Shown here: one piece after another, positions 5,876 through 64,000 of the stretch | Position numbering within the stretch: position 1 is the stretch's first letter | Layout: every line of letters begins with the position of its first letter | Assembly: GCF_036373705.1 (NCBI RefSeq) | Contig: NW_027102723.1 | Coordinates: 1 to 64,000 of the forward strand | Length of the DNA stretch: 64,000 bases | Direction of reading: 5' to 3' | DNA from: Amia ocellicauda | Lineage: Eukaryota > Chordata > Actinopteri > Amiiformes > Amiidae | Position numbers and translations under genes: made by a program | Notes under the pieces: model-generated | What the model was told of the DNA's origin: nothing | What the model saw: the letters and a program-made list of their open reading frames with translations, nothing else | Database searches by the model: none

Positions 5876-6715
5876 CTCACCCTGAGGCCAGTATTCTAAA
5901 CCTGTGCTGTGTTGAGACCTTGTTGACCGAGGGCCATGATGGTGAAAAGCCTGGACGGCCTTCCTGGTGAAAATGAGATACGCAGTTGCGTCTAGGCAAG
6001 GTGTTCCCTGCTTCCTTCGGCAAATATCCAGCCTGGGCAAATGTTGTCTTCCGGAGGCAAGTCAAGCCAGGAACTCTGAGAGATGGTTCCATCCCCAATG
6101 TGCCACTTGTAAGAACTGTGTAAAAAGCGACAGAGAACGTGATCAGCAAGGAAACACAATTCTCCTGAGAACGACAATCATCGTGCCGATCGTAATCTCA
6201 GTGCATACCTGGATGCCCAACAAGCCAAGCCAGTGGTTCCCAAGCGTTGTAATGCCACGGAACACTTTGCTGAGACCAAAAACCTTCGCGGCGCACCAAC
6301 ATGAAAAAAAAAAAAAAGGATTAACTAGGTTAGTCTCACCTGAATGGCAACAGGCTGCTAAAACTATTATCACACGCACATTGCATGTTAAAGTATGTCA
6401 GTAAGGGAGTAATTAAAAGGGCAAATGTGTGAAGTGCAAGGAGTGGCCTTAGTGGTTAGGTAAAAAAGTACACAGACAAACTAAATAATCCCTTGATACA
6501 AATCATTTATTTAGTGCAGACAGACCAAGACCAGCCACAATAAACTATTCGCAGTAAATATAAATTCACAGCAAAATAGGTTCAGTTCACAATATCCTAT
6601 AACAAGCTGTATTTAACGAAGTAGTTAAACGTTACAAAGGGCATTACAATTGTTGAAAAACAATAGCACACGGATCAAACATGCTATCCCCGCCGTTTTA
6701 TTCGATTTGATTAGA

Positions 6716-6760
6716 CGTTTCGCGACCGAAATGTTTTGTGTGCAGACTGAACGCACACCT
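6716..6760 (+). repeat. Left subterminal inverted arm, R1 transposon
   Basis: A 45-nt arm starting CGTTTCGCGACCGAAATG and ending GAACGCACACCT. It is largely complementary to 8999-9044. It lies inside the 309-bp segment (6610-6918), so only R1, R2, R10 and R15 keep it. Confidence 0.75.
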
Positions 6761-7539
6761 GAGCCGAGCACGACCACAATACATATCCACAGTTAATCTA
6801 AGCAGTGTCATATTGTAACCGTTTTGGTCTGTTATCAACCCTTCCGGATCCAAAACCAGGAGTCAGACACCCTTTTCGGTGGACATGCTGTTGACTTCTC
6901 ACAAGCACCATCTGCCTTCACAAAGGCAGCGCTAGCAGTGGAAAGAACGAAGAACTGCAGGAGAAACGCCGGGGCTATTTAGAGCCCGATTATTCAACAC
7001 AGAGGGGGGAAACCAAAGCCAAATGAGACTTAGAGGAACAGGAGACATCCAACAACAGTATAAAGATGAAAAGGAATTCACCACATGTCCCTTTAATCAA
7101 TTGCCTTGCAGTTCCACTGTGTAGCGTTATGTTGGGTGTATTTTGATAAGAGCATTTGGGCTCTGAGCTGAAGCACTGATCTAAAGAAGACCTCTACACC
7201 CCCAAAGTTATCAGATTGCCTTTGCTCATCAGCTTGGAACTGGTTTGCATCAAAGTGACAGTTTTGGGGAGGATGGCACCGAGAAGAGGCCAAATAGGTT
7301 GAATCCTGCTATAGGATGTCTGGAGAAAGGGGCCTGTAGGTGATAAAAACTCTTTGAAGTGGACGAGAGCCGAAATCCCGACATAGAGCTACGAACCCGG
7401 GCCAACCGGCATTTCCAAAACATGGCATGGATTGACATCAGTCATAAATCAAGCCCCCCTCCATTAGGACACTGGGGGCTGAAACCGAAATCCAATCTCA
7501 AGAACTCAAGAACCAATCACCTATTGATCTGACAGACTA

Positions 7540-7552
7540 TAAGGAACAGTGC

Positions 7553-7596
<44 letters not shown>

Positions 7597-8480
7597 ACCT
7601 GAACCAGTAACTCGCTGCCACAGCTCAACCTGTAGCTCTGTTGCCCGAACCGGAACCAGAAACCAACCAAGTCTTTGCCGGCAACAGAAGAGTTAAACTG
7701 GGAGAAGGAGATTGAGCCGTACGAAGAATTCTATTAAAGGACTTTATTAAATAAAGAACTTTACAGACTGCGCATGCCCGCCTGTGCCCACCTGATCAGT
7801 GGAGTTTTACAGCTGGACAATTGAGTAAGTCGAATGTATATGAAAGTGTTCAGTCATTTAAATAGCTATTTGAGTCTTAAGAAACTTGACCCTTGGAACG
7901 AACAGGGCCCTGCTTTCCTCAAAGACTTTGTCTTCAAGTAACTACGGTGGAACCCTGCTTACAAAGAAGATTTTGTGCACAACCTTGGAGCCTTCAAACC
8001 AGTGGAAAATCTGTTTGGAAAAGACTCTAATTTCGCGAAACCCCAACTTCCAGGTGCATCGACTGAGTGGAAGTTCTTGGACAAAGCCGAACCGCACTGC
8101 CTTTGTTCCAAACCACACGGACCATGTGCCGTGTGCTGTGATCTGAGCCCGAAGACAGAGAGGCCTCTCTGCGACGAAGTTCAGATAAGTTTAACAGTTT
8201 GGAGTTCATGATTCATGACATTTGAGAAATCAATTAGAAATGTTATTCTGTGATTCATAAATCTAGAATGTGTAATATCATTTAGTTTTCTTAAATATAA
8301 ATGTGTGTTGCATTAAACTGTTTTGTTGATAATTTTAGAAATAAAATCTGTCAACCCCGAGAAATATCTTCTCATTCCTGTTTAACTGTTTAGTCTGAAA
8401 TTGACACAAGTCAATAGACGTTAGATTATTGGTGGCCCTGCCTATCCTTGATCATTGAATAATAATCAGTTAAGGGAAAT
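7540..8480 (+). other. LTR-like interior of the transposon (R1 example)
   Basis: A CT tract (7557-7596) is followed by TTTAAA/TATTAAATA-like sequence, an NRF1-like TGCGCATGC (7769-7777), a GTAAGT donor-like motif (7825-7830) and AATAAA (8340-8345). Then comes TTATTGGTGGCCCTGCC near 8437, which resembles the primer-site region after some Gypsy-type LTRs. No matching second LTR, gag or pol is visible. This may be a captured retroelement or gene-promoter fragment; the identity is not established. Confidence 0.3.
7557..7596 (+). repeat. CT microsatellite (R1 example)
   Basis: (CT)n with a TTT interruption. Tract length differs between units, from 28 bp in R15 to 60 bp in R14, and the tract is absent from the 1402-bp units. 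Confidence 0.95.
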
Positions 8481-8998
8481 TGTGGTAACAAGTAATGATA
8501 GGATCTTTCTCGGCACCTAAACGTAAATGAGACTGATATATATATAACGAGAAGTTACCTGACATAAATACTAACCTGCCTAGTTATTTAATGTCTGACT
8601 AACAATACTAACGAGAGACTCACCTTCGTCTTACTAACCGGTATTGTAGTTAATGTGTTTATAACCTTTTTTGTTTAACGATTTGTGTGTTATCATATGC
8701 GATCCCATGGTCTTTGATTTGGTCACGGAAGTGATTTGTCTTTGATTTGTTGATCTAGAGTTGAATTTTGATTAGCTTTTCCCTTTTGTATAATTAGTGT
8801 AGTGCTACATTTAGTCTTTGTTTTTGAATAAATTTAACAATTTATATCTTTGGAATTGGTGTCTGTGTCCAATTATCACAGAAATTGAGTTCTACAAGAT
8901 TCCAGGATTCGTGATAAGGTGATACTATAAATTCACTTCTTAAATTGAAATTTATAAGTGTACCTTACGATACAACTGATAGCACTGCAACTCAGTGT

Positions 8999-9044
8999 AG
9001 GTGTGCGTTCAGTCCGGCAAACACAACATTTCAGTTATGAAACG
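8999..9044 (-). repeat. Right subterminal inverted arm, R1 transposon
   Basis: Starts AGGTGTGCGTTCAGTC and ends GAAACG, the inverted partner of 6716-6760 with several mismatches. It may mark the edges of a nested foldback element or be subterminal repeats of the hAT element. Confidence 0.75.
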
Positions 9045-9282
9045 CTTTCTACAGGTGATGTATAAATGTAATATTTTCACACATTTGAATAAGTTTGATT
9101 TGATACAAGATTTATGAAGTTGACCAAACAAAATGACATAATATTTTTCAGGGGATAAAAATCTCACGACACAATTGGGTAGTCCTCACGGCACACGGGT
9201 TGAAAACCACTGAGCCAAGCCACGGTGCTTCTTGGCTTTGCACGGCCACTGAGACTGCCAGGGGAAGACGGTGAGAAGCATC

Positions 9283-9371
9283 CCTTCGATAGCTCAGTTG
9301 GTAGAGCGGAGGACTGTAGGTTTCAGGCAGCGGGCATCCTTAGGTCGCTGGTTCAATTCCGGCTCGAAGGA
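9283..9371 (+). tRNA. tRNA-Tyr(GTA), R1
   Basis: Encodes tyrosine tRNA, processed after Pol III transcription. The acceptor stem CCTTCGA/TCGAAGG pairs fully. Anticodon GTA is at 9316-9318, and a 16-nt intron (9320-9335) sits after position 37, the canonical eukaryotic site. The A box is TAGCTCAGTTGG (9290-9301), the B box GGTTCAATTCC (9350-9360), and the discriminator is A. A TTTT run at 9397-9400 is the probable terminator. The gene lies 70 nt after the transposon's right end and 235 nt upstream of tRNA-Lys. Confidence 0.96.
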
Positions 9372-9396
9372 AGGCGTGATTATGGTTTGACATCGG

Positions 9397-9400
9397 TTTT
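9397..9400 (+). terminator. Probable Pol III terminator of tRNA-Tyr (R1)
   Basis: TTTT 26 nt after the tRNA-Tyr 3' end, in CATCGGTTTTGG. The same run follows the other tRNA-Tyr copies. Confidence 0.6.
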
Positions 9401-9606
9401 GGACGAGCTCCCAAATGTCAAGCCATTGGAATTGCATGAGGACAAGGAGAAAACACCGGAAATTCGGATTTGCTGTGGAGAACTCGCATTGCCCAAACAT
9501 CTCATATGCATGTGACCCTTTTCACCCTGAGCCCAGTTTTCTAAATCGGCCAGTAAGCGGTGTGGAACAATCATGAAGCCAACACATTGTGAAGCACTTC
9601 ACTGAA

Positions 9607-9679
9607 GCCCGGGTAGCTCAGCCGGTAGAGCATCAGACTTTTAATCTGAGGGTCCAGGGTTCGAGTCCCTGTTCGGGTG
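9607..9679 (+). tRNA. tRNA-Lys(TTT), R1
   Basis: Full 73-nt lysine tRNA gene without intron. Acceptor GCCCGGG pairs with TTCGGGT with G-U at both ends. Anticodon TTT at 9640-9642, A box TAGCTCAGCCGG (9614-9625), B box GGTTCGAGTCC (9658-9668), discriminator G. No T4 lies close downstream (CCTTGTTGACC), so termination may be read through. Confidence 0.95.
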
Positions 9680-9681
9680 CC

Positions 9682-10186
9682 TTGTTGACCGAGGGCCATG
9701 ATGGTGAAAAGCCTGGATGGCCTTCCAGGTGACAATGAAATATGCAGTTGCGTCTAGGCAAGGTGTCTAGTCCTCTTTGCTTCTTTCGGCAAATATCCAG
9801 CCTGGGCAAGTGTTGTCTTCCAGAGGCAAGTCAAGCCAGGAACTCTGAGAGATGTTTTTGCCGTTGACGACGTGTCACTTTAGAACAGCACAACATCCAT
9901 CTCTACTTGACTTGGCACAATCTGTGAGGGTTGGGCCAACACAACGTGTCCACACATTTGCAGGCGTCTTGAAATACTTGGAATGACCTGTGGCCCCATG
10001 CCATGCAGAAGTCCACAGGTATGCGTGTCAGCATGCTCTGCTCCTCATCCCCAATGTGCCACTTGTAAGAACTTTGTAAAAAGCGACAGAGAACATGATC
10101 AGCAAAGAAACACAATTCTCCTGAGAACGACAATCATCGTGCCGATCGTAATCTCAGTGCATACCTGGATGCCCAACAAGCCAAGC
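9682..10186 (+). other. Unit spacer between tRNA-Lys and the transposon (R2 example)
   Basis: About 505 bp without a gene. It holds a short CCTGGA/TCCAGG hairpin (9712-9729) and an 8-bp inverted repeat ACCTGTGG/CCACAGGT (9986-9993 and 10013-10020). The repeat is perfect in R2 and R3 but has one mismatch in most units. I see nothing else in it. Confidence 0.7.
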
Positions 10187-11510
10187 CAGTGGTTCCCAAG
10201 CGTTGTAATGCCACGGCACACTTTGCTGAGACCAAAAACCTTCGCGGCGCACCAACATGAAAAAAGAAAAAAAGGATTTACTAGGTATTGTCTCACCTGA
10301 ATGGCAACAGGCTGCTAAAACTATTATCACACGCACATTGCATGTTAAAGTATGTCAGTAAGGGAGTAATTAAAAGGGCAAATGTGTGAAGTGCAAGGAG
10401 TGGCCCTTAGTGGTTAGCTAAAAAAGTACACAGACAAACTAAATAATCCCTTGATACAAATCATTTATTTAGTGCAGACAGACCAAGACCAGCCACAATA
10501 AACTATTCGCAGTAAATATAAATTCACAGCAAAATAGGTTCAGTTCACAATATCCTATAACAAGCTGTATTTAACGAAGTAGTTAAACGTTACAAAGGGC
10601 ATTACAATTTTAGAAAAACAATAGCACACGGATCAAACATGCTATCCCCGCCATTTTATTCGATTTGATTAAACGTTTCGCGACCGAAATGTTTTGTGTG
10701 CAGACTGAACGCACACCTGAGCCGAGCACGATCACAATACATATCCACAGTTAATCTAAGCAGTATCATATTGTAACCGTTTCGGTCTGTTATCAACCCT
10801 TCCGGATCCAAAACCAGGAGTCAGACACCCTTTTCGGTGGACATGCTGTTGACTTCTCACAAGCACCATCTGCCTTCACAAAGGCAGCGCTAGCAGTGGA
10901 AAGAACGAAGAACTGCAGGAGAAACGCCGGGGCTATTTAGAGCCCGATTATTCAACACAGAGGGGGGAAACCAAAGCCAAATGAGACTTAGAGGAACAGG
11001 AGACATCCAACAACAGTATAAAGATGAAAAGGAATTCACCACATGTCCCTTTAATCAATTGCCTTGCAGTTCCACTGTGTAGCGTTATGTTGGGTGTATT
11101 TTGATAAGAGCATTTGGGCTCTGAGCTGAAGCACTGATCTAAAGAAGACCTCTCCACCCCCAAAGTTATCAGATTGCCTTTGCTCATCAGCTTGGAACTG
11201 GTTTGCATCAAAGTGACAGTTTTGGGGAGGATGGCACCGAGAAGAGGCCAAATAGGTTGAATCCTGCTATAGGATGTCTGGAGAAAGGGGCCTGTAGGTG
11301 ATAAAAACTCTTTGAAGTGGACGAGAGCCGAAATCCCGACATAGAGCTACGAACCCGGGCCAACCGGCATTTCCAAAAGATGGCATGGATTGACATCAGT
11401 CATAAATCAAGCCCCCCTCCATTAGGACACTGGGGGCTGAAACCGAAATCCAATCTCAAGAACTCAAGAACCAATCACCTATTGATCTGACAGACTATAA
11501 GGAACAGTGC

Positions 11511-11554
<44 letters not shown>

Positions 11555-12693
11555 ACCTGAACCAGTAACTCGCTGCCACAGCTCAACCTGTAGCTCTGTT
11601 GCCCGAACCGGAACCAGAAACCAACCAAGTCTTTGCCGGCAACAGAAGAGTTAAACTGGGAGAAGGAGATTGAGCCGTACGAAGAATTCTATTAAAGGAC
11701 TTTATTAAATAAGGAACTTTACAGACTGCGCATGCCCGCCTGTGCCCACCTGATCAGTGGAGTTTTACAGCTGGACAATTGAGTAAGTCGAATGTATATG
11801 AAAGTGTTCAGTCATTTAAATAGCTATTTGAGTCTTAAGAAACTTGACCCTTGGAACGAACAGGGCCCTGCTTTCCTCAAAGACTTTGTCTTCAAGTAAC
11901 TACGGTGGAACCCTGCTTACAAAGAAGATTTTGTGCACAACCTTGGAGCCTTCAAACCAGTGGAAAATCTGTTTGGAAAAGACTCTAATTTCGCGAAACC
12001 CCAACTTCCAGGTGCATCGACTGAGTGGAAGTTCTTGGACAAAGCCGAACCGCACTGCCTTTGTTCCAAACCACACGGACCATGTGCCGTGTGCTGTGAT
12101 CTGAGCCCGAAGACAGAGAGGCCTCTCTGCGACGAAGTTTATAACCTTTTTTGTTTAACGATTTGTGTGTTATCATATGCGATCCCAATGGTCTTTGATT
12201 TGGTCACGGAAGTGATTTGTCTTTGATTTGTTGATCTAGAGTTGAATTTTGATTAACTTTTCCCTTTTGTATAATTAGTGTAGTGCTACATTTAGTCTTT
12301 GTTTTTGAATAAATTTAACAATTTATATCTTTGGAATTGGTGTCTGTGTCCAATTATTACAGAAATTGAGTTCTACAAGATTCCAGGATTCGTGATAAGG
12401 TGATACTATAAATTCACTTCTTAAATTGAAATTTATAAGTGTACCTTACGATACAACTGATAGCACTGCAACTCAGTGTAGGTGTGCGTTCAGTCCGGCA
12501 AACACAACATTTCAGTTATGAAACGCTTTCTACAGGTGATGTATAAATGTAATATTTTCACACATTTGAATAAGTTTGATTTGATACAAGATTTATGAAG
12601 TTGACCAAACAAAATGACATAATATTTTTCAGGGGATAAAAATCTCACGACACAATTGGGTAGTCCTCACGGCACACGGGTTGAAAACCACTG
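10187..12693 (+). mobile_element. hAT-type transposon, R2 copy (2507 bp, internal deletion)
   Basis: Both termini and both AGCCAAGC duplications (10179-10186, 12694-12701) are intact. The interior has lost 478 bp. Confidence 0.9.
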
Positions 12694-12763
12694 AGCCAAG
12701 CCACGGTGCTTCTTGGCTTTGCACGGCCACTGAGACTGCCAGGGGAAGACGGTGAGAAGCTTC

Positions 12764-12852
12764 CCTTCGATAGCTCAGTTGGTAGAGCGGAGGACTGTAG
12801 TTTTCAGGCAGCGGGCATCCTTAGGTCGCTGGTTCAATTCCGGCTCGAAGGA
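12764..12852 (+). tRNA. tRNA-Tyr(GTA), R2, with T4 in the intron
   Basis: Same structure as the R1 copy, but the first intron base is T instead of G. This makes TTTT at 12801-12804. Four Ts can stop vertebrate Pol III, so this gene may be prematurely terminated. The mature sequence is otherwise intact. Confidence 0.92.
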
Positions 12853-13087
12853 AGGCGTGATTATGGTTTGACATCGGTTTTGGACGAGCTCCCAAATGTC
12901 AAGCCATTGGAATTGCATGAGGACAAGGAGAAAACACCGGAAATTCGGATTTGCTGTGAAGAACTCGCATTGCCCAAACATCTCATATGCATGTGACCCT
13001 TTTCACCCTGAGCCCAGTTTTCTAAATCGGCCAGTAAGCGGTGTGGAACAATCATGAAGCCAACACATTGTGAAGCACTTCACTGAA

Positions 13088-13160
13088 GCCCGGGTAGCTC
13101 AGCCGGTAGAGCATCAGACTTTTAATCTGAGGGTCCAGGGTTCGAGTCCCTGTTCGGGTG
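13088..13160 (+). tRNA. tRNA-Lys(TTT), R2
   Basis: Same sequence as the R1 gene, including the 3' end GGGTG that gives a G1-U72 wobble. Confidence 0.95.
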
Positions 13161-13667
13161 CCTTGTTGACCGAGGGCCATGATGGTGAAAAGCCTGGATG
13201 GCCTTCCAGGTGACAATGAAATATGCAGTTGCGTCTAGGCAAGGTGTCTAGTCCTCTTTGCTTCTTTCGGCAAATATCCAGCCTGGGCAAGTGTTGTCTT
13301 CCAGAGGCAAGTCAAGCCAGGAACTCTGAGAGATGTTTTTGCCGTTGACGACGTGTCACTTTAGAACAGCACAACATCCATCTCTACTTGACTTGGCACA
13401 ATCTGTGAGGGTTGGGCCAACACAACGTGTCCACACATTTGCAGGCGTCTTGAAATACTTGGAATGACCTGTGGCCCCATGCCATGCAGAAGTCCACAGG
13501 TATGCGTGTCAGCATGCTCTGCTCCTCATCCCCAATGTGCCACTTGTAAGAACTTTGTAAAAAGCGACAGAGAACATGATCAGCAAAGAAACACAATTCT
13601 CCTGAGAATGACAATCATCGTGCCGATCGTAATCTCAGTGCATACCTGGATGCCCAACAAGCCAAGC

Positions 13668-14508
13668 CAGTGGTTCCCAAGCGTTGTAATGCCACGGCAC
13701 ACTTTGCTGAGACCAAAAACCTTCGCGGCGCACCAACATGAAAAAAAAAAAAAAGGATTTACTAGGTATTGTCTCACCTGAATGGCAACAGGCTGCTAAA
13801 ACTATTATCACACGCACATTGCATGTTAAAGTATGTCAGTAAGGGAGTAATTAAAAGGGCAAATGTGTGAAGTGCAAGGAGTGGCCCTTAGTGGTTAGGT
13901 AAAAAAGTACACAGACAAACTAAATAATCCCTTGATACAAATCATTTATTTAGTGCAGACAGACCAAGACCAGCCACAATAAACTATTCGCAGTAAATAT
14001 AAATTCACAGCAAAATAGGTTCAGTTCACAATATCCTATAACAAGCTGCACAAAGGCAGCGCTAGCAGTGGATAGAACGAAGAACTGCAGGAGAAACGCC
14101 GGGGCTATTTAGAGCCCGATTATTCAACACAGAGGGGGAAAACCAAGGCCAAATGAGACTTAGAGGAACAGGAGACATCCAACAACAGAATAAAGATAAA
14201 AAGGAATTCACCACATGTCCCTTTAATCAATTGCCTTGCAGTTCCACTGTGTAGCGTTATGTTGGGTGTATTTTGATGAGAGCATTTGGGCTCTGAGCTG
14301 AAGCACTGATCTAAAGAAGACCTCTCCACCCCCAAAGTTATCAGATTTCCTTTGCTCATCAGCTTGGAACCGGTTTGCATCAAAGTGACAGTTTTGGGGT
14401 GGATGGCACCGAGAAGAGGCCAATACTAACGAGAGACTCACCTTCGTCTTACTAACCGGTATTGTAGTTAATGTGTTTATAACCTTTTTTGTTTAACGAT
14501 TTGTGTGT
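13668..14508 (+). mobile_element. hAT remnant, R3 (right end lost)
   Basis: The left terminus is present, but the 309-bp and 1308-bp interior segments and the right end are gone. The sequence runs straight into the truncated tRNA-Lys. Confidence 0.88.
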
Positions 14509-14562
14509 TAGAGCATCAGACTTTTAATCTGAGGGTCCAGGGTTCGAGTCCCTGTTCGGGCG
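14509..14562 (+). pseudogene. 5'-truncated tRNA-Lys(TTT), R3
   Basis: Begins TAGAGCATCAGAC after GTGTGT. The first 19 nt (acceptor 5' strand and almost all of the A box) were removed by the 935-bp deletion. Anticodon arm, B box and 3' end remain. Not expected to yield tRNA. Confidence 0.94.
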
Positions 14563-15069
14563 CCTTGTTGACCGAGGGCCATGATGGTGAAAAGCCTGGA
14601 TGGCCTTCCAGGTGACAATGAAATATGCAGTTGCGTCTAGGCAAGGTGTCTAGTCCTCTTTGCTTCTTTCGGCAAATATCCAGCCTGGGCAAGTGTTGTC
14701 TTCCAGATGCAAGTCAAGTCAGGAACTCTGAGAGATGTTTTTGCCGTTGACGACATGTCACTTTAGAACAGCACAACATGCATCTCTACTTGACTTGGCA
14801 CAATCTGTGAGGGTTGGGCCAACACAACGTGTCCACACATTTGCAGGCGTCTTGAAATACTTGGAATGACCTGTGGCCCCATGCCATGCAGAAGTCCACA
14901 GCTATGCGTGTCAGCATGCTCTGCTCTTCATCCCCAATGTGCCACTTGTAAGAACTGTGTAAAAAGCGACAGAGAACGTGATCAGCAAAGAAACACAATT
15001 CTCCTGAGAACGACAATCATCGTGCCGATCGTAATCTCAGTGCATACCTGGATGCCCAACAAGCCAAGC

Positions 15070-15910
15070 CAGTGGTTCCCAAGCGTTGTAATGCCACGGA
15101 ACACTTTGCTGAGACCAAAAACCTTCGCGGCGCACCAACATGAAAAAAAAAAAAAAGGATTTACTAGGTATTGTCTCACCTGAATGGCAACAGGCTGCTA
15201 AAACTATTATCACACGCACATTGCATGTTAAAGTATGTCAGTAAGGGAGTAATTAAAAGGGCAAATGTGTGAAGTGCAAGGAGTGGCCCTTAGTGGTTAG
15301 GTAAAAAAGTACACAGACAAACTAAATAATCCCTTGATACAAATCATTTATTTAGTGCAGACAGACCAAGACCAGCCACAATAAACTATTCGCAGTAAAT
15401 ATAAATTCACAGCAAAATAGGTTCAGTTCACAATATCCTATAACAAGCTGCACAAAGGCAGCGCTAGCAGTGGATAGAACGAAGAACTGCAGGAGAAACG
15501 CCGGGGCTATTTAGAGCCCGATTATTCAACACAGAGGGGGAAAACCAAGGCCAAATGAGACTTAGAGGAACAGGAGACATCCAACAACAGAATAAAGATA
15601 AAAAGGAATTCACCACATGTCCCTTTAATCAATTGCCTTGCAGTTCCACTGTGTAGCGTTATGTTGGGTGTATTTTGATGAGAGCATTTGGGCTCTGAGC
15701 TGAAGCACTGATCTAAAGAAGACCTCTCCACCCCCAAAGTTATCAGATTTCCTTTGCTCATCAGCTTGGAACCGGTTTGCATCAAAGTGACAGTTTTGGG
15801 GTGGATGGCACCGAGAAGAGGCCAATACTAACGAGAGACTCACCTTCGTCTTACTAACCGGTATTGTAGTTAATGTGTTTATAACCTTTTTTGTTTAACG
15901 ATTTGTGTGT
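15070..15910 (+). mobile_element. hAT remnant, R4 (right end lost)
   Basis: Same deletion structure as the R3 remnant: left terminus retained, right terminus and most of the interior lost. Confidence 0.88.
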
Positions 15911-15964
15911 TAGAGCATCAGACTTTTAATCTGAGGGTCCAGGGTTCGAGTCCCTGTTCGGGCG
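15911..15964 (+). pseudogene. 5'-truncated tRNA-Lys(TTT), R4
   Basis: Same junction and sequence as the R3 fragment. Confidence 0.94.
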
Positions 15965-16471
15965 CCTTGTTGACCGAGGGCCATGATGGTGAAAAGCCTG
16001 GATGGCCTTCCAGGTGACAATGAAATATGCAGTTGCGTCTAGGCAAGGTGTCTAGTCCTCTTTGCTTCTTTCGGCAAATATCCAGCCTGGGCAAGTGTTG
16101 TCTTCCAGATGCAAGTCAAGTCAGGAACTCTGAGAGATGTTTTTGCCGTTGACGACATGTCACTTTAGAACAGCACAACATGCATCTCTACTTGACTTGG
16201 CACAATCTGTGAGGGTTGGGCCAACACAACGTGTCCACACATTTGCAGGCGTCTTGAAATACTTGGAATGACCTGTGGCCCCATGCCATGCAGAAGTCCA
16301 CAGCTATGCGTGTCAGCATGCTCTGCTCTTCATCCCCAATGTGCCACTTGTAAGAACTGTGTAAAAAGCGACAGAGAACGTGATCAGCAAAGAAACACAA
16401 TTCTCCTGAGAACGACAATCATCGTGCCGATCGTAATCTCAGTGCATACCTGGATGCCCAACAAGCCAAGC

Positions 16472-17486: not shown

Positions 17487-17529
<43 letters not shown>

Positions 17530-52882: not shown

Positions 52883-52952
52883 AGCCAAGCCACGGTGCTT
52901 CTTGGCTTTGCACGGCCACTGAGACTGCCAGGGGAAGACGGTGAGAAGCTTC

Positions 52953-53041
52953 CCTTCGATAGCTCAGTTGGTAGAGCGGAGGACTGTAGGTTTCAGGCAG
53001 CAGGCATCCTTAGGTCGCTGATTCAATTCCGGCTCGAAGGA
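52953..53041 (+). tRNA. tRNA-Tyr(GTA), R16, B-box/T-stem change
   Basis: The B box reads GATTCAATTCC. The second box base, normally G53, is part of the T-stem pair with C61 and is now A. This breaks the pair and departs from the Pol III consensus. One intron base also differs. Likely weakened. Confidence 0.88.
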
Positions 53042-53276
53042 AGTCGTGATTATGGTTTGACATCGGTTTTGGACGAGCTCCCAAATGTCAAGCCATTGGA
53101 ATTGCATGAGGACAAGGAGAAAACACCGGAAATTCGGATTTGCTGTGGAGAACTCGCATTGCCCAAACATCTCATATGCATGTGACCCTTTTCACCCTGA
53201 GCCCAGTTTTCTAAACCGGCCAGAAAGCGGTCTGGAACAATCATGAAGCCCACACATTGTGAAGCACTTCACTGAA

Positions 53277-53349
53277 GCCCGGGTAGCTCAGCCGGTAGAG
53301 CATCAGACTTTTAATCTGAGGGTCCAGGGTTCGAGTCCCTGTTCGGGTG
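53277..53349 (+). tRNA. tRNA-Lys(TTT), R16
   Basis: Full length with the GGGTG 3' end (G1-U72 wobble). Both boxes intact. Confidence 0.95.
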
Positions 53350-53837
53350 CCTTGTTGACCGAGGGCCCTGATGGTGAAAAGCCTGGATGGCCTTCCAGTT
53401 GACAATGAAATATGCAGTTGCGTCTAGGCAAGCTGTCTAGTCCTCTTTGCTTCTTTTGGCAAATATCCAGCCTGGGCAAGTGTTGTCTTCCAGAGGCAAG
53501 TCAAGCCAGGAACTCTGACGACGTGTCACTTTAGAACAGCACAACATGCATCTCTACTTGACTTGGCACAATCTGTGAGGGTTGGGCCAACACAACGTGT
53601 CCACACATTTGCAGGCGTCTTGAAATACTTGGAATGACCTGTGGCCCCATGCCATGCAGAAGTCCACAGCTATGCGTGTCAGCATGCTCTGCTCCTCATC
53701 CCCAATGTGCCACTTGTAAGAACTTTGTAAAAAGCGACAGAGAACATGATCAGCAAAGAAACACAATTCTCCTGAGAACGACAATCATCGTGCCGATCGT
53801 AATCTCAGTGCATACCTGGATGCCCAACAAGCCAAGC

Positions 53838-54857
53838 CAGTGGTTCCCAAGCGTTGTAATGCCACGGCACACTTTACTGAGACCAAAAACCTTCGCGGCG
53901 CACCAACATGAAAAAGAAAAAAAAAGGATTTACTAGGTATTGTCTCACCTGAATGGCAACAGGCTGCTAAAACTATTATCACACGCACATTGCATGTTAA
54001 AGTATGTCAGTAAGGGAGTAATTAAAAGGGCAAATGTGTGAAGTGCAAGGAGTGGCCCTTAGTGGTTAGGTAAAAAAGTACACAGACAAACTAAATAATC
54101 CCTTGATACAAATCATTTATTTAGTGCAGACAGACCAAGACCAGCCACAATAAACTATTCGCAGTAAATATAAATTCACAGCAAAATAGGTTCAGTTCAC
54201 AATATCCTATAAGAAGCTGCACAAAGGCAGCGCTAGCAGTGGAAAGAACGAAGAACTGCAGGAGAAACGCCGGGGCTATTTAGAGCCCGATTATTCAACA
54301 CAGAGGGGGAAAACCAAGGCCAAATGAGACTTAGAGGAACAGGAGACATCCAACAACAGTATAAAGATAAAAAGGAATTCACCACATGTCCCTTTAATCA
54401 ATTGCCTTGCAGTTCCACTGTGTAGCGTTATGTTGGGTGTATTTTGATAAGAGCATTTGGGCTCTGAGCTGAAGCACTGATCTAAAGAAGACCTCTCCAC
54501 CCCCAAAGTTATCAGATTTCCTTTGCTCATCAGCTTGGAACTGGTTTGCATCAAAGTGACAGTTTTGGGGAGGATGGCACCGAGAAGAGGCCAAATAGGT
54601 TGAATCCTGCTATGAGATGTCTGGAGAAAGGGGCCTGTAGGTGATAAAAACTCTTTGAAGTGGACGAGAGCCGAAATCCCGACATAGAGCTACGAACCCG
54701 GGCCAACCGGCATTTCCAAAAGATGGCATGGATTGACATCAGTCATAAATCAAGCCCCCCTCCATTAGGACACTGGGGGCTGAAACCGAAATCCAATCTC
54801 AAGAACTCAAGAACCAATCACCTATTGATCTGACAGACTATAAGGAACAGTGCACAG

Positions 54858-54889
<32 letters not shown>

Positions 54890-55981
54890 ACCTGAACCAG
54901 TAACTCGCTGCCACAGCTCAACCTGTAGCTCTGTTGCCCGAACCGGAACCAGAAACCAACCAAGTCTTTGCCGGCAACAGAAGAGTTAAACTGGGAGAAG
55001 GAGATTGAGCCGTACGAAGAATTCTATTAAAGGACTATATTAAAGAAAGAACTTTACAGACTGCGCATGCCCGCCTGTGCCCACCTGATCAGTGGAGTTT
55101 TACAGCTGGACAATTGAGTAAGTCGAATGTATATGAAAGTGTTCAGTCATTTAAATAGCTATTTGAGTCTTAAGAAACTTGACCCTTGGAACGAACAGGG
55201 CCCTGCTTTCCTCAAAGACTTTGTCTTCAAGTAACTACGGTGGAACCCTGCTTACAAAGAAGATTTTGTGCACAACCTTGGAGCCTTCAAACCAGTGGAA
55301 AATCTGTTTGGAAAAGACTAATTTCGCGAAACCCCAATTTCCAGGTGCATCGACTGAGTGGAAGTTCTTGGACAAAGCCGAACCGCACTGCCTTTGTTCC
55401 AAACCACACGGACCATGTGTCGTGTGCTGTGATCTGAGCCCGAAGACAGAGAGGCCTCTCTGCGACGAAGTTCAGATAAGTTTAACAGTTTGGAGTTCAT
55501 GATTCATGACATTTGAGAAATCAATTAGAAATGTTATTCTGTGATTCAAAACTCTAGAATGTGTAATATCATTTAGTTTTCTTAAATATAAATGTGTGTT
55601 GCATTAAACTGTTTTGTTGATAATTTTAGAAATAAAATCTGTCAACCCCGAGAAATATCTTCTCATTCCTGTTTAACTGTTTAGTCTGAAATTGACACAA
55701 GTCAATAGACGTTAGATTATTGGTGGCCCTGCCTATCCTTGATCATTGAATAATAATCAGTTAAGGGAAATTGTGGTAACAAGTAATGATAGGATCTTTC
55801 TCGGCACCTAAACGTAAATGAGACTGATATATATATAACGAGAAGTTACCTGACATAAATACTAACCTGCGTAGTTATTTAATGTCTGACTAACAATACT
55901 AACGAGAGACTCACCTTCGTCTTACTAACCGGTATTGTAGTTAATGTGTTTATAACCTTTTTTGTTTAACGATTTGTGTGT
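53838..55981 (+). mobile_element. hAT remnant, R17 (right end lost)
   Basis: Left terminus present; 309-bp and 935-bp deletions. A private 2-bp deletion near 55319 shifts the small frame found there in other copies. Confidence 0.88.
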
Positions 55982-56035
55982 TAGAGCATCAGACTTTTAA
56001 TCTGAGGGTCCAGGGTTCGAGTCCCTGTTCGGGCG
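55982..56035 (+). pseudogene. 5'-truncated tRNA-Lys(TTT), R17
   Basis: Same junction; 54 nt remain. Confidence 0.94.
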
Positions 56036-56542
56036 CCTTGTTGACCGAGGGCCATGATGGTGAAAAGCCTGGATGGCCTTCCAGGTGACAATGAAATATG
56101 CAGTTGCGTCTAGGCAAGGTGTCTAGTCCTCTTTGCTTCTTTCGGCAAATATCCAGCCTGGGCAAGTGTTGTCTTCCAGAGGCAAGTCAAGTCAGGAACT
56201 CTGAGAGATGTTTCTGCCGTTGATGACGTGTCACTTTAGAACAGCACAACATGCATCTCTACTTGACTTGGCACAATCTGTGAGGGTTGGGCCAACACAA
56301 CGTGTCCACACATTTGCAGGCGTCTTGAAATACTTGGAATGACCTGTGGCCCCATGCCATGCAGAAGTCCACAGCTATGCGTGTCAGCATGCTCTGCTCT
56401 TCATCCCCAATGTGCCACTTGTAAGAACTGTGTAAAAAGCGACAGAGAACGTGATCAGCAAAGAAACACAATTCTCCTGAGAACGACAATCATCGTGCCG
56501 ATCGTAATCTCAGTGCATACCTGGATGCCCAACAAGCCAAGC

Positions 56543-57560
56543 CAGTGGTTCCCAAGCGTTGTAATGCCACGGCACACTTTGCTGAGACCAAAAACCTTCG
56601 CGGCGCACCAACATGAAAAAAAAAAAAAGGATTTACTAGGTATTGTCTCACCTGAATGCCAACAGGCTGCTAAAACTATTATCACACGCACATTGCATGT
56701 TAAAGTATGTCAGTAAGGGAGTAATTAAAAGGGCAAATGTGTGAAGTGCAAGGAGTGGCCCTTAGTGGTTAGGTAAAAAAGTACACAGACAAACTAAATA
56801 ATCCCTTGATACAAATCATTTATTTAGTGCAGACAGACCAAGACCAGCCACAATAAACTATTCGCAGTAAATATAAATTCACAGCAAAATAGGTTCAGTT
56901 CACAATATCCTATAACAAGCTGCACAAAGGCAGCGCTAGCAGTGGAAAGAACGAAGAACTGCAGGAGAAACGCCGGGGCTATTTAGAGCCCGATTATTCA
57001 ACACAGAGGGGGAAAACCAAGGCCAAATGAGACTTAGAGGAACAGGAGACATCCAACAACAGTATAAAGATAAAAAGGAATTCACCACATGTCCCTTTAA
57101 TCAATTGCCTTGCAGTTCCACTGTGTAGCGTTATGTTGGGTGTATTTTGATAAGAGCATTTGGGCTCTGAGCTGAAGCACTGATCTAAAGAAGACCTCTC
57201 CACCCCCAAAGTTATCAGATTTCCTTTGCTCATCAGCTTGGAACTGGTTTGCATCAAAGTGACAGTTTTGGGGAGGATGGCACCGAGAAGAGGCCAAATA
57301 GGTTGAATCCTGCTATGAGATGTCTGGAGAAAGGGGCCTGTAGGTGATAAAAACTCTTTGAAGTGGACGAGAGCCGAAATCCCGACATAGAGCTACGAAC
57401 CCGGGCCAACCGGCATTTCCAAAAGATGGCATGGATTGACATCAGTCATAAATCAAGCCCCCCCCCATTAGGACACTGGGGGCTGAAACCGAAATCCAAT
57501 CTCAAGAACTCAAGAACCAATCACCTATTGATCTGACAGACTATAAGGAACAGTGCACAG

Positions 57561-57592
<32 letters not shown>

Positions 57593-58686
57593 ACCTGAAC
57601 CAGTAACTCGCTGCCACAGCTCAACCTGTAGCTCTGTTGCCCGAACCGGAACCAGAAACCAACCAAGTCTTTGCCGGCAACAGAAGAGTTAAACTGGGAG
57701 AAGGAGATTGAGCCGTACGAAGAATTCTATTAAAGGACTTTATTAAATAAAGAACTTTACAGACTGCGCATGCCCGCCTGTGCCCACCTGATCAGTGGAG
57801 TTTTACAGCTGGACAATTGAGTAAGTCGAATGTATATGAAAGTGTTCAGTCATTTAAATAGCTATTTGAGTCTTAAGAAACTTGACCCTTGGAACGAACA
57901 GGGCCCTGCTTTCCTCAAAGACTTTGTCTTCAAGTAACTACGTTGGAACCCTGCTTACAAAGAAGATTTTGTGCACAACCTTGGAGCCTTCAAACCAGTG
58001 GAAAATCTGTTTGGAAAAGACTCTAATTTCGCGAAACCCCAATTTCCAGGTGCATCGACTGAGTGGAAGTTCTTGGACAAAGCCGAACCGCACTGCCTTT
58101 GTTCCAAACCACACGGACCATGTGCCGTGTGCTGTGATCTGAGCCCGAAGACAGAGAGGCCTCTCTGCGACGAAGTTCAGATAAGTTTAACAGTTTGGAG
58201 TTCATGATTCATGACATTTGAGAAATCAATTAGAAATGTTATTCTGTGATTCAAAACTCTAGAATATGTAATATCATTTAGTTTTCTTAAATATAAATGT
58301 GTGTTGCATTAAACTGTTTTGTTGATAATTTTAGAAATAAAATCTGTCAACCCCGAGAAATATCTTCTCATTCCTGTTTAACTGTTTAGTCTGAAATTGA
58401 CACAAGTCAATAGACGTTAGATTATTGGTGGCCCTGCCTATCCTTGATCATTGAATAATAATCAGTTAAGGGAAATTGTGGTAACAAGTAACGATAGGAT
58501 CTTTCTCGGCACCTAAACGTAAATGAGACTGATATATATATAACGAGAAGTTACCTGACATAAATACTAACCTGCGTAGTTATTTAATGTCTGACTAACA
58601 ATACTAACGAGAGACTCACCTTCGTCTTACTAACCGGTATTGTAGTTAATGTGTTTATAACCTTTTTTGTTTAACGATTTGTGTGT
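56543..58686 (+). mobile_element. hAT remnant, R18 (right end lost)
   Basis: Left terminus present; 309-bp and 935-bp deletions. Confidence 0.88.
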
Positions 58687-58740
58687 TAGAGCATCAGACT
58701 TTTAATCTGAGGGTCCAGGGTTCGAGTCCCTGTTCGGGCG
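58687..58740 (+). pseudogene. 5'-truncated tRNA-Lys(TTT), R18
   Basis: Same junction; 54 nt remain. Confidence 0.94.
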
Positions 58741-59247
58741 CCTTGTTGACCGAGGGCCATGATGGTGAAAAGCCTGGATGGCCTTCCAGGTGACAATGAA
58801 ATATGCAGTTGCGTCTAGGCAAGGTGTCTAGTCCTCTTTGCTTCTTTCGGCAAATATCCAGCCTGGGCAAGTGTTGTCTTCCAGAGGCAAGTCAAGTCAG
58901 GAACTCTGAGAGATGTTTCTGCCGTTGATGACGTGTCACTTTAGAACAGCACAACATGCATCTCTACTTGACTTGGCACAATCTGTGAGGGTTGGGCCAA
59001 CACAACGTGTCCACACATTTGCAGGCGTCTTGAAATACTTGGAATGACCTGTGGCCCCATGCCATGCAGAAGTCCACAGCTATGCGTGTCAGCATGCTCT
59101 GCTCTTCATCCCCAATGTGCCACTTGTAAGAACTGTGTAAAAAGCGACAGAGAACGTGATCAGCAAAGAAACACAATTCTCCTGAGAACGACAATCATCG
59201 TGCCGATCGTAATCTCAGTGCATACCTGGATGCCCAACAAGCCAAGC

Positions 59248-60265
59248 CAGTGGTTCCCAAGCGTTGTAATGCCACGGCACACTTTGCTGAGACCAAAAAC
59301 CTTCGCGGCGCACCAACATGAAAAAAAAAAAAAGGATTTACTAGGTATTGTCTCACCTGAATGCCAACAGGCTGCTAAAACTATTATCACACGCACATTG
59401 CATGTTAAAGTATGTCAGTAAGGGAGTAATTAAAAGGGCAAATGTGTGAAGTGCAAGGAGTGGCCCTTAGTGGTTAGGTAAAAAAGTACACAGACAAACT
59501 AAATAATCCCTTGATACAAATCATTTATTTAGTGCAGACAGACCAAGACCAGCCACAATAAACTATTCGCAGTAAATATAAATTCACAGCAAAATAGGTT
59601 CAGTTCACAATATCCTATAACAAGCTGCACAAAGGCAGCGCTAGCAGTGGAAAGAACGAAGAACTGCAGGAGAAACGCCGGGGCTATTTAGAGCCCGATT
59701 ATTCAACACAGAGGGGGAAAACCAAGGCCAAATGAGACTTAGAGGAACAGGAGACATCCAACAACAGTATAAAGATAAAAAGGAATTCACCACATGTCCC
59801 TTTAATCAATTGCCTTGCAGTTCCACTGTGTAGCGTTATGTTGGGTGTATTTTGATAAGAGCATTTGGGCTCTGAGCTGAAGCACTGATCTAAAGAAGAC
59901 CTCTCCACCCCCAAAGTTATCAGATTTCCTTTGCTCATCAGCTTGGAACTGGTTTGCATCAAAGTGACAGTTTTGGGGAGGATGGCACCGAGAAGAGGCC
60001 AAATAGGTTGAATCCTGCTATGAGATGTCTGGAGAAAGGGGCCTGTAGGTGATAAAAACTCTTTGAAGTGGACGAGAGCCGAAATCCCGACATAGAGCTA
60101 CGAACCCGGGCCAACCGGCATTTCCAAAAGATGGCATGGATTGACATCAGTCATAAATCAAGCCCCCCCCCATTAGGACACTGGGGGCTGAAACCGAAAT
60201 CCAATCTCAAGAACTCAAGAACCAATCACCTATTGATCTGACAGACTATAAGGAACAGTGCACAG

Positions 60266-60297
<32 letters not shown>

Positions 60298-61913
60298 ACC
60301 TGAACCAGTAACTCGCTGCCACAGCTCAACCTGTAGCTCTGTTGCCCGAACCGGAACCAGAAACCAACCAAGTCTTTGCCGGCAACAGAAGAGTTAAACT
60401 GGGAGAAGGAGATTGAGCCGTACGAAGAATTCTATTAAAGGACTTTATTAAATAAAGAACTTTACAGACTGCGCATGCCCGCCTGTGCCCACCTGATCAG
60501 TGGAGTTTTACAGCTGGACAATTGAGTAAGTCGAATGTATATGAAAGTGTTCAGTCATTTAAATAGCTATTTGAGTCTTAAGAAACTTGACCCTTGGAAC
60601 GAACAGGGCCCTGCTTTCCTCAAAGACTTTGTCTTCAAGTAACTACGTTGGAACCCTGCTTACAAAGAAGATTTTGTGCACAACCTTGGAGCCTTCAAAC
60701 CAGTGGAAAATCTGTTTGGAAAAGACTCTAATTTCGCGAAACCCCAATTTCCAGGTGCATCGACTGAGTGGAAGTTCTTGGACAAAGCCGAACCGCACTG
60801 CCTTTGTTCCAAACCACACGGACCATGTGCCGTGTGCTGTGATCTGAGCCCGAAGACAGAGAGGCCTCTCTGCGACGAAGTTCAGATAAGTTTAACAGTT
60901 TGGAGTTCATGATTCATGACATTTGAGAAATCAATTAGAAATGTTATTCTGTGATTCAAAACTCTAGAATATGTAATATCATTTAGTTTTCTTAAATATA
61001 AATGTGTGTTGCATTAAACTGTTTTGTTGATAATTTTAGAAATAAAATCTGTCAACCCCGAGAAATATCTTCTCATTCCTGTTTAACTGTTTAGTCTGAA
61101 ATTGACACAAGTCAATAGACGTTAGATTATTGGTGGCCCTGCCTATCCTTGATCATTGAATAATAATCAGTTAAGGGAAATTGTGGTAACAAGTAACGAT
61201 AGGATCTTTCTCGGCACCTAAACGTAAATGAGACTGATATATATATAACGAGAAGTTACCTGACATAAATACTAACCTGCGTAGTTATTTAATGTCTGAC
61301 TAACAATACTAACGAGAGACTCACCTTCGTCTTACTAACCGGTATTGTAGTTAATGTGTTTATAACCTTTTTTGTTTAACGATTTGTGTGTTATCATATG
61401 CGATCCCATGGTCTTTGATTTGGTCACGGAAGTGATTTGTCTTTGATTTGTTGATCTAGAGTTGAATTTTAATTAGCTTTTCCCTTTTGTATAATTAGTG
61501 TAGTGCTACATTTAGTCTTTGTTTTTGAATAAATTTAACAATTTATATCTTTGGAATTGGTGTCTGTGTCCAATTATCACAGAAATTGAGTTCTACAAGA
61601 TTCCAGGATTCGTGATAAGGTGATACTATAAATTCACTTCTTAAATTGAAATTTATAAGTGTACCTTACGATACAACTGATAGCACTGCAACTCAGTGTA
61701 GGTGTGCGTTCAGTCCGGCAAACACAACATTTCAGTTATGAAACGCTTTCTACAGGTGATGTATAAATGTAATATTTTCACACATTTGAATAAGTTTGAT
61801 TTGATACAAGATTTATGAAGTTGACCAAACAAAATGACATAATATTTTTCAGGGGATAAAAATCTCACGACACAATTGGGTAGTCCTCACGGCACACGGG
61901 TTGAAAACCACTG
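59248..61913 (+). mobile_element. hAT-type transposon, R19 copy (2666 bp)
   Basis: Both termini and AGCCAAGC duplications (right copy 61914-61921) present; 309-bp deletion. Confidence 0.9.
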
Positions 61914-61983
61914 AGCCAAGCCACGGTGCCTCTTGGCTTTGCACAGCCACTGAGACTGCCAGGGGAAGACGGTGAGAAGCTTC

Positions 61984-62072
61984 CCGTCGATAGCTCAGTT
62001 GGTAGAGCGGAGGACTGTAGGTTTCAGACAGCGGGCATCCTTAGGTCGCTGGTTCAATTCCGGCTCGAAGGA
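61984..62072 (+). tRNA. tRNA-Tyr(GTA), R19, acceptor mismatch
   Basis: The acceptor 5' strand is CCGTCGA opposite TCGAAGG, a G/A mismatch at the third pair. One intron base also differs. Anticodon and boxes are intact, but stability is reduced. Confidence 0.88.
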
Positions 62073-62307
62073 AGGCGTGATTATGGTTTGACATCGGTTT
62101 TGGACGAGCTCCCAAATGTCAAGCCATTGGAATTGCATGAGGACAAGGAGAAAACACCGGAAATTCGGATTTGCTGTGGAGAACTCGCATTGCCCAAACA
62201 TCTCATATGCATGTGACCCTTTTCACCCTGAGCCCTGTTTTTTAAACCGGCCAGAAAGCGGTCTGGAACAATCATGAAGCCAACACATTGTGAAGCACTT
62301 CACTGAA

Positions 62308-62368
62308 GCCCGGGTAGCTCAGCCGGTAGAGCATCAGACTTTTAATCTGAGGGTCCAGGGTTCGGGCG
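62308..62368 (+). pseudogene. tRNA-Lys(TTT) pseudogene, R19, 12-nt deletion
   Basis: 5' half and anticodon intact, but 12 nt are missing between two TTCG direct repeats. The T-loop, the 3' side of the T stem and most of the B box are lost. It cannot fold as a tRNA. Confidence 0.93.
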
Positions 62369-62370
62369 CC

Positions 62371-63890
62371 TTGTTGACCGAGAGCCATGATGGTGAAAAG
62401 CCTGGATGGCCTTCCAGGTGACAATGAAATATGCAGTTGTGTCTAGGCAAGGTGTCTAGTCCTCTTTGCTTCTTTCGGCAAATATCCAGCCTGGGCAAGT
62501 GTTGTCTTCCAGAGGCAAGTCAAGCCAGGAACTCTGAGAGATGTTTTTGCCGTTGACGACGTGTCACTTTAGAACAGCACAACATGCATCTCTACTTGAC
62601 TTGGCACAATCTGTGAGGGTTGGGCCAACACAACGTGTCCACACATTTGCAGGCGTCTTGAAATACTTGGAATGACCTGTGGCCCCATGCCATGCAGAAG
62701 TCCACAGCTATGCGTGTCAGCATGCTCTGCTCCTCATCCCCAATGTGCCACTTGTAAGAACTTTGTAAAAAGCGACAGAGAACATGATCAGCAAAGAAAC
62801 ACAATTCTCCTGAGAACGACAATCATCGTGCCGATCGTAATCTCAGTGCATACCTGGATGCCCAACAAGCCAAGCCAGTGGTTCCCAAGCGTTGTAATGC
62901 CACGGCACACTTTGCTGAGACCAAAAACCTTCGCGGCGCACCAACATGAAAAAAAAAAAAAAGGATTTACTAGGTATTGTCTCACCTGAATGGCAACAGG
63001 CTGCTAAAACTATTATCACACGCACATTGCATGTTAAAGTATGTCAGTAAGGGAGTAATTAAAAGGGCAAATGTGTGAAGTGCAAGGAGTGGCCCTTAGT
63101 GGTTAGGTAAAAAAGTACACAGACAAACTAAATAATCCCTTGATACAAATCATTTATTTAGTGCAGACAGACCAAGACCAGCCACAATAAACTATTCGCA
63201 GTAAATATAAATTCACAGCAAAATAGGTTCAGTTCACAATATCCTATAACAAGCTGCACAAAGGCAGCGCTAGCAGTGGAAAGAACGAAGAACTGCAGGA
63301 GAAACGCCGGGGCTATTTAGAGCCCGATTATTCAACACAGAGGGGGAAAACCAAGGCCAAATGAGACTTAGAGGAACAGGAGACATCCAACAACAGTATA
63401 AAGATGAAAAGGAATTCACCACATGTCCCTTTAATCAATTGCCTTGCAGTTCCACTGTGTAGCGTTATGTTGGGTGTATTTTGATAAGAGCATTTGGGCT
63501 CTGAGCTGAAGCACTGATCTAAAGAAGACCTCTCCACCCCCAAAGTTATCAGATTTCCTTTGCTCATCAGCTTGGAACTGGTTTGCATCAAAGTGACAGT
63601 TTTGGGGAGGATGGCACCGAGAAGAGGCCAAATAGGTTGAATCCTGCTATGAGATGTCTGGAGAAAGGGGCCTGTAGGTGATAAAAACTCTTTGAAGTGG
63701 ACGAGAGCCGAAATCCCGACATAGAGCTACGAACCCGGGCCAACCGGCATTTCCAAAAGATGGCATGGATTGACATCAGTCATAAATCAAGCCCCCCTCC
63801 ATTAGGACACTGGGGGCTGAAACCGAAATCCAATCTCAAGAACTCAAGAACCAATCACCTATTGATCTGACAGACTATAAGGAACAGTGC

Positions 63891-63936
<46 letters not shown>

Positions 63937-64000
63937 TTTCTCTCTCACCTGAACCAGTAACTCGCTGCCACAGCTCAACCTGTAGCTCTGTTGCCCGAAC
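62371..64000 (+). repeat. Array unit R20 (partial, cut by window edge)
   Basis: Spacer and the left part of the transposon with the 309-bp deletion. CT tract at 63895-63946 with a private A interruption. The array continues beyond the window. Confidence 0.95.
62876..64000 (+). mobile_element. hAT-type transposon, R20 copy (cut by window edge)
   Basis: Left terminus with its AGCCAAGC duplication at 62868-62875. The 309-bp segment is absent, and the element runs out of the window. Confidence 0.85.

Follow-up and report, generated by a model that had tools for sequence, protein, structure and literature searches.

Results

A tandem array of tRNA-Tyr and tRNA-Lys genes joined to telomere repeats

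The first 64,000 nucleotides of contig C88 (144,851 bp) in the Amia ocellicauda assembly (988 Mb, 385 contigs), which we call the window, open with a tract of CCCTAA telomere repeats that runs directly into a tandem array of tRNA-Tyr and tRNA-Lys genes carrying a hAT-like element. In our interpretation, the array is probably a single block within a large tandem repeat of tRNA genes, extends to a chromosome end and has been shaped by unequal exchange. An earlier note on this stretch, made from its letters alone, had described twenty same-orientation units derived from a tRNA-Tyr plus tRNA-Lys cassette, and both parts of that description hold. Searching the + strand of the window for the motif CCTT[GT]TTGACCGAG locates 20 unit starts (U1 to U20, the 20th interrupted by the window end), and every BLAST match of the first unit against the window lies on the + strand. 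The units carry 9 Tyr genes, 8 complete Lys genes and one truncated Lys, with a single deletion accounting for the null units. The array start had been placed at 5876; its sequence in fact begins at 5871, within the Tyr–Lys spacer of a partial unit.

Among the 19 complete units, both genes persist in nine, including the one with the truncated Lys, while the other ten are without an intact tRNA gene (null units). The longest unit, U10 (3972 bp), consists of a spacer, the ~3.0-kb hAT-like element, tRNA-Tyr, a 235-bp spacer and tRNA-Lys. The arrangement is thus that of a tandem tDNA array, with head-to-tail units bearing intact nuclear tRNA genes. It extends beyond the window to about C88:85,353, where the final stretch is 94–96% like the unit consensus and is followed by other sequence. 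Across C88:1-104,000 we count 15 Tyr genes (≤4 mismatches in exon 1), 13 Lys genes (≤6) and 10 null-unit junctions (≤3). The features of the window are as follows.

1..5869, + strand: CCCTAA telomere repeats, noisy at 1-183 and 4341-4417, with CCCCAA variants at 5840-5857
5871..5919, + strand: junction, a Tyr–Lys spacer remnant (5871-5902) joined to the telomere repeats
5920..9681, + strand: U1, tRNA-bearing, with a 188-bp deletion
6231..9212, + strand: hAT-like element of U1, AGCCAAGC duplications at 6223-6230 and 9213-9220
9283..9371, + strand: tRNA-Tyr (GTA) of U1, with a 16-nt intron
9607..9681, + strand: tRNA-Lys (TTT) of U1
9682..13162, + strand: U2, tRNA-bearing (Tyr 12764-12852, Lys 13088-13162), 478-bp deletion within the element
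13163..14564, + strand: U3, null, 936-bp and 1332-bp deletions; Lys remnant comprising all after the first 19 nt
14565..15966, + strand: U4, null, 936-bp and 1332-bp deletions
15967..18676, + strand: U5, null (936-bp deletion)
18677..20078, + strand: U6, null, 936-bp and 1332-bp deletions
20079..22788, + strand: U7, null (936-bp deletion)
22789..26443, + strand: U8, tRNA-bearing (Tyr 26045-26133, Lys 26369-26443)
26444..29143, + strand: U9, null
29144..33115, + strand: U10 (Tyr 32717-32805, Lys-CTT 33041-33115)
29649..32646, + strand: hAT-like element of U10, 2998 bp
33116..36776, + strand: U11, tRNA-bearing (Tyr 36378-36466, Lys-CTT 36702-36776)
36777..40437, + strand: U12, tRNA-bearing (Tyr 40039-40127, Lys 40363-40437)
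40438..43155, + strand: U13, null
43156..45889, + strand: U14, null
45890..49833, + strand: U15, tRNA-bearing (Tyr 49435-49523, Lys 49759-49833)
49834..53351, + strand: U16, tRNA-bearing (Tyr 52953-53041, Lys 53277-53351); a 133-bp deletion removes the element 5′ end
53352..56037, + strand: U17, null
56038..58742, + strand: U18, null
58743..62370, + strand: U19 (Tyr 61984-62072; Lys 62308-62370, with a 12-bp loss in its 3′ half)
62371..64000 (window end), + strand: U20, continuing to C88:66031, with Tyr at 65633 and Lys at 65957

A hAT-like element at one position in the units

Members of the hAT superfamily are defined by features that include an 8-bp target duplication, terminal inverted repeats and a transposase with hAT domains. 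The earlier note's proposal of a transposon in the array is borne out by an element with CAGTGGTT ends and the 8-bp target duplication AGCCAAGC on both sides, as in that superfamily, which sits between successive Tyr/Lys pairs; as judged by eye, 15 of its first 20 end bases match as terminal inverted repeats. The 5′ end and its duplication are found in 19 of the 20 units and the 3′ end in 9 (it is deleted in 10 and lies beyond the window in one). Among those nine, eight have AGCCAAGC flanking both sides and U16 is without the 5′ side. A unit minus the element would measure 967 bp. None of 15 open pieces searched for transposase or other protein genes gave a Pfam match above the curated cut-off (best 18.5 bits against 26.9), hence we file the element as hAT-like only; a non-autonomous or decayed element would look so. 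Unlike a typical hAT family, the copies seen here multiplied with the array, not by transposition.

Two further observations concern the element. An inner stretch in U1 (window 7335-7904, coordinates by eye) contains a 590-column candidate solo long terminal repeat with a 5-bp repeat, GGGCC; we do not claim it, as it is one of 7 TGT..ACA candidates and possibly due to chance. Outside the array, C88:89,344-91,203 holds a second copy of the inner part, reversed and 92.5% identical.

A shared null unit and exchange between units

All ten null units carry a 936-bp deletion with the same breakpoint, which runs from within the element into tRNA-Lys and removes Tyr together with the first 19 nt of Lys, a segment that we take to contain most of the A box. 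Three of the ten additionally share a 1332-column deletion. Allowing ≤2 mismatches, the assembly contains the 936-bp deletion junction 127 times, and the 100 of these that were listed are all exact and lie on contigs C38 to C377.

Counting columns common to both units and excluding a TC run, the units diverge by a mean of 0.89% over 190 pairs, which excludes chance resemblance. Neighboring units are closer than in random order (0.65 vs 0.89%, permutation p 5e-5; p 2e-4 without U1), so that low divergence and closest neighbors are found together, as in concerted evolution of a tandem tDNA array. On shared columns, U5 is identical to U7, and U18 to U19, yet only U18 carries the 936-bp deletion; similarly, U12 and U13 are 0.11% apart and only U13 is deleted.

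A second contig, C148, provides a view of the array at a different copy number. Its positions 5001-50,000 contain 12 complete units, and the best C88 matches of 11 of them follow array order (two on U14). Overall, 45.0 kb of C148 stands against 73.85 kb of C88, that is, about 29 kb fewer units in C148, and the last 1500 bases of C148 equal C88:101,622-103,121. C88 and C148 are most readily understood as alleles, or as sister copies, that differ in unit number. Since neighbors are most alike and C148 has fewer units, unequal exchange is the likely engine, to which gene conversion may add.

The tRNA genes

Calls by ARAGORN (with and without intron mode) and Rfam confirm the Tyr and Lys genes of the window, namely 9 Tyr and 8 complete Lys, the ninth Lys (U19) being truncated. 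In intron mode, ARAGORN assigns 8 of the 9 Tyr genes as Tyr-GTA with a 16-nt intron and leaves that of U2 unassigned; without intron mode all 9 are unassigned. The Rfam tRNA model scores 53.5–59.4 bits for 9 of 9 Tyr and 66.8–69.2 bits for 8 of 9 Lys, and 9 Lys remnants score 32 bits. As judged by this family model, the tRNAs are well supported. Their sequences, together with the telomere repeat, point to a vertebrate-like genome. A wider Rfam search of one unit (window 29142-33300, E up to 1) returned only tRNA above the gathering score. A T4 run is located 26 nt downstream of Tyr in all nine copies.

The Lys anticodons are 6 TTT and 2 CTT. The two CTT genes, in the neighboring units U10 and U11 (33041-33115 and 36702-36776), have an otherwise TTT-type body and differ by a one-base switch. 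Another local change, a G-to-T relative to the other units within window 40436-40442, makes the Lys of U12 the only one of nine with a close T-run terminator.

The telomere junction is repeated inside another contig

The telomere tract at the start of C88 is 5.7 kb long and mostly perfect, with 939 CCCTAA repeats in window 1-5872 and three CCCCAA variants at 5840-5857. A noisy patch at 4341-4417 in this near-perfect tract resembles the noise at 1-183 and may mark an assembly or read-end join. The partial unit at the junction is without its Lys gene. Its bases 5871-5902 match six Tyr–Lys spacers at 29 of 32 positions; therefore, the telomere joins within a partial unit, and the joining point is a CCC that the spacer and the repeat have in common.

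The same junction is found inside the 2.07-Mb contig C188. A 352-bp junction query matches C188 over its full length at 97% in 10 places and in two pieces at an eleventh, and a 35-base junction pattern has 12 places in the assembly, 1 on C88 and 11 on C188. In all seven of the 11 C188 copies for which upstream sequence was read (six over 100 bases, one over 1500), repeats mixing CCCTAA with CCCCTAA reach the same junction, which suggests that the fusion is old and was copied. With 11 copies inside C188, the telomere/unit junction is not a unique fusion of the C88 end. Still, the length of the C88 tract and its mostly perfect repeats give this contig start the look of a chromosome end, and we infer from sequence that C88:1 is a true one.

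The first ~170 columns of U1 are about 89% like other units. Decay at the array edge was considered as a cause and rejected, since window 5871-6222 is 97% like the C188 copies.

The array elsewhere in the assembly

The Tyr–Lys segment occurs on at least 17 contigs (among 40 places scored of 600 candidates), which total 3.09 Mb, or 2.46 Mb without C350. Fifteen of the 17 have no telomere tract in their first 10 kb or last 1.5 kb; of the other two, C148 is N over 1-5000, and C88 alone shows a tract. The earlier note's claim that the array abuts the telomere thus stands as to the direct join with a long CCCTAA tract at the C88 start; the array is not special to the telomere, given these 15 contigs and the 11 junctions inside C188. 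Assembly-wide counts are 441 Tyr exon-1 sites (≤2 mismatches), 431 sites with the array intron (≤3) and 359 Lys 5′ parts (≤3).

A 1500-bp piece of the C88 flank recurs at about 100% identity at least 25 times, across 18 contigs, with one copy truncated by a contig edge (40 scored among 3149 candidates). Spacings within contigs are 100.5, 102.7, 102.9, 103.1, 116.8, 116.8 and 152.5 kb; with flank copies mostly 100–117 kb apart, a higher-order repeat is suggested.

Chromosome-end location is not confined to C88, as the 42-Mb contig C18 has an array-type Tyr site 9.4 kb and a Tyr exon 11.8 kb from its right end, where the last 100 bases are TTAGGG repeats. C88 and C18 thus place array sequence next to a telomere, on sequence alone. 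Other large contigs carry related sites at various distances from their ends: C8 has a Tyr/Lys pair 10.2–10.5 kb from the left end, the first 100 bases being non-telomeric; on C1, the greater part of a Lys-like sequence lies, together with the spacer after it, 23.5 kb in from the left end, and the first 100 bases are likewise without telomere repeats; Lys sites on C5 lie 0.4–1.7 Mb, and Tyr sites on C2 2.9–10.8 Mb, from the right end.

Discussion

A proposed stepwise origin of the array

Unit anatomy, the insertion, the shared deletion, the largely colinear contig with a shorter array, the repeated flank and the repeated junction can all be read directly in the sequence, and from them we infer a process, unequal exchange, and an order of events. 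An ancestral ~967-bp unit that contained a single tRNA-Tyr and a single tRNA-Lys gene would have received a hAT-like DNA transposon and then been copied head to tail, so that the transposon sits at an identical position in the copies. In sister or homologous arrays, unequal exchange would keep the units about 99% alike and change their copy number, and the same exchange would have spread one null unit, that with the 936-bp deletion, to about half of the window units. Block and flank would have been duplicated as a higher-order repeat of mostly 100–117 kb. The telomere–unit junction would have been made once, probably by healing or recombination at the CCC in the Tyr–Lys spacer, and afterwards copied inside C188. 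We envision that RNA polymerase III may transcribe the intact genes, which would then serve as a dosage reserve, possibly in oocytes.

Several observations weigh against this account. The empty site of the transposon (55 bases, ≤3 mismatches) has 0 places in the assembly, hence the ancestral unit is deduced, not observed. The best single-unit match of C148 unit 11 is out of order, on U15; the C88 unit opposite is not scorable alone, its start motif being changed, and a whole-stretch BLAST puts the later part of C148 at C88:70,568 onward, in order. Positions 1-5000 of C148 are N, so that no second telomere junction is visible there. Several contigs have ends identical over 1.5–8.6 kb, so the assembly may contain both haplotypes or overlaps that inflate copy counts. 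As for the genes, Lys is without a close T4 in 8 of 9 copies (the first T4 lies at +176 in 7 of 9, at +105 in one and at +3 in one), and its termination would need a weak site or read-through. Across the 9 tRNA-bearing units, Tyr varies at 8 of 89 columns vs 72 of 2936 in the element (Fisher p 0.002), and its exons alone at 5 of 73 (p 0.037). Other spacers vary at 41 of 803 columns, which is not different from Tyr (p 0.14), and 27 of 654 overlapping 89-column control windows vary as much as Tyr or more; by this comparison, single Tyr copies are not visibly conserved. Finally, free folding by itself supports the tRNAs only weakly, with z of -1.6 for spliced Tyr, -2.2 for the U8 Lys, 0.4 for the truncated U19 Lys and -0.2 for the U3 remnant.

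What maintains the array can be read in two ways. The tRNA genes may be passengers of a satellite that grows and shrinks without function and decays toward tRNA-less units, which we consider plausible, although short of probable. The single null unit at 127 places, the excess variability of Tyr over the element and the distant Lys terminators would all be expected of such drift; however, the Tyr and Lys of most tRNA-bearing units still fit the tRNA model well, and Lys varies at only 2 of 73 columns, both shared between units and with no singleton substitutions, even though the U19 Lys has lost 12 bp. Alternatively, selection may keep the array because eggs need large tRNA stocks, a need described in Xenopus and suggested for zebrafish chromosome 4; this proposal we regard as more tentative. 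It draws on the tRNA model matches (9 of 9 Tyr and 8 of 9 Lys in the tRNA-bearing units), on the hundreds of copies in the assembly, on bona fide maternal tRNAs of zebrafish that are reported to derive from highly repetitive regions (PMC11417395), and on the oocyte and somatic tRNA gene sets reported for Xenopus (PMC3565088). Against it stand the same variable Tyr copies and the ten null units among 19. A dosage reserve, perhaps for eggs, would be the reading closest to known biology, and satellite drift appears to fit the sequence about as well.

A bolder version of events, which we regard as unlikely, is that a multi-megabase tRNA-Tyr/Lys megasatellite, at once gene-dosage array and selfish satellite, makes up most of a vertebrate-like chromosome end. 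The telomere-repeat/unit junction would then be a copied module moved between the end and internal sites, and the null unit, lacking both Tyr and the Lys A box, would be sweeping through the array by unequal exchange. An assembly artefact, with the telomere wrongly attached to an internal array or with C88 beginning inside a long interstitial telomere tract, would agree with the noisy patches at 1-183 and 4341-4417, the interstitial junction in C188 and the shortness of C88, but seems improbable given that the junction unit is a distinct variant (97% like the C188 copies and, over its first columns, about 89% like its neighbors), so that the telomere was not joined at a random identical unit, and that the 5.7-kb C88 tract is mostly perfect whereas the seven C188 tracts mix CCCTAA with CCCCTAA.

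Relation to known tRNA gene arrays

Our preferred reading, a tandem tRNA-gene repeat shaped by unequal exchange, finds a close counterpart in the 3.18-kb tDNA repeat of Xenopus laevis, which reportedly maps near a telomere and has eight tRNA genes per unit. The two share a head-to-tail order of Pol III tRNA units, Tyr and Lys genes among their contents, a place near a chromosome end and a high copy number. The Amia array differs in having two tRNA genes per unit rather than eight, a hAT-like insert, a shared null unit and a repeated flank at ~100 kb.

The clusters on the long arm of zebrafish chromosome 4 are similar in that very many tRNA genes of mixed kinds lie clustered among repeats, with a maternal role proposed (PMC11417395, PMC11075544, PMC2888827). 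The accessible part of PMC11075544 depicts the tRNA-rich region as a heterochromatic block, with two further regions before the right telomere, calls the maternal status of these genes unknown and the maternal role a hypothesis and, unlike the case here, describes no telomere junction. Arrays in Entamoeba are tandem tRNA units proposed to lie at chromosome ends (PMC2652664). They resemble the present array in both respects; however, an Entamoeba-type array would replace the telomere at ends without telomere repeats, whereas here CCCTAA repeats, 939 of them, precede and cap the array. PMC2888827 states that tRNA tandem repeats had until then been reported from Entamoeba only, which conflicts with the Xenopus repeat. 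Among the titles and starts of abstracts listed in a literature search, none describes a Tyr/Lys array at an animal telomere, most subscription papers being outside its reach, and we do not claim absence from print.

The structure is a large variant of the known tandem tRNA arrays (Xenopus, the zebrafish clusters and Entamoeba), with a spreading null unit. It lets the behavior of a tRNA array at a chromosome end be followed base by base: the units share a transposon insertion, one null form is spreading, two largely colinear contigs differ in copy number, and copies of the telomere junction sit inside another contig. Its most useful features are the null form common to many units and the duplicated junction; counts of null and intact units across individuals would directly measure whether selection acts on tRNA dosage in such arrays.

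Additional tRNA and telomere-repeat sequences

An exact 34-base Tyr-intron pattern gave 0 matches in viral contigs. The start of C146 (L011:1784-1857) contains a tRNA-Phe (GAA) gene call in non-array sequence. A separate internal cluster on the - strand of C2 (15,678,711-15,777,545) has 12 exact matches to tRNA-Tyr exon 1, and none of the 100 exact array-intron matches listed, of 431 places, falls within it. On the 64-Mb contig C1, interior telomere-repeat tracts lie at 3,664,283-4,060,495; three neighbors among them are exactly 3809 bp apart, and the tracts look as if they belong to a satellite unit carrying telomere repeats.

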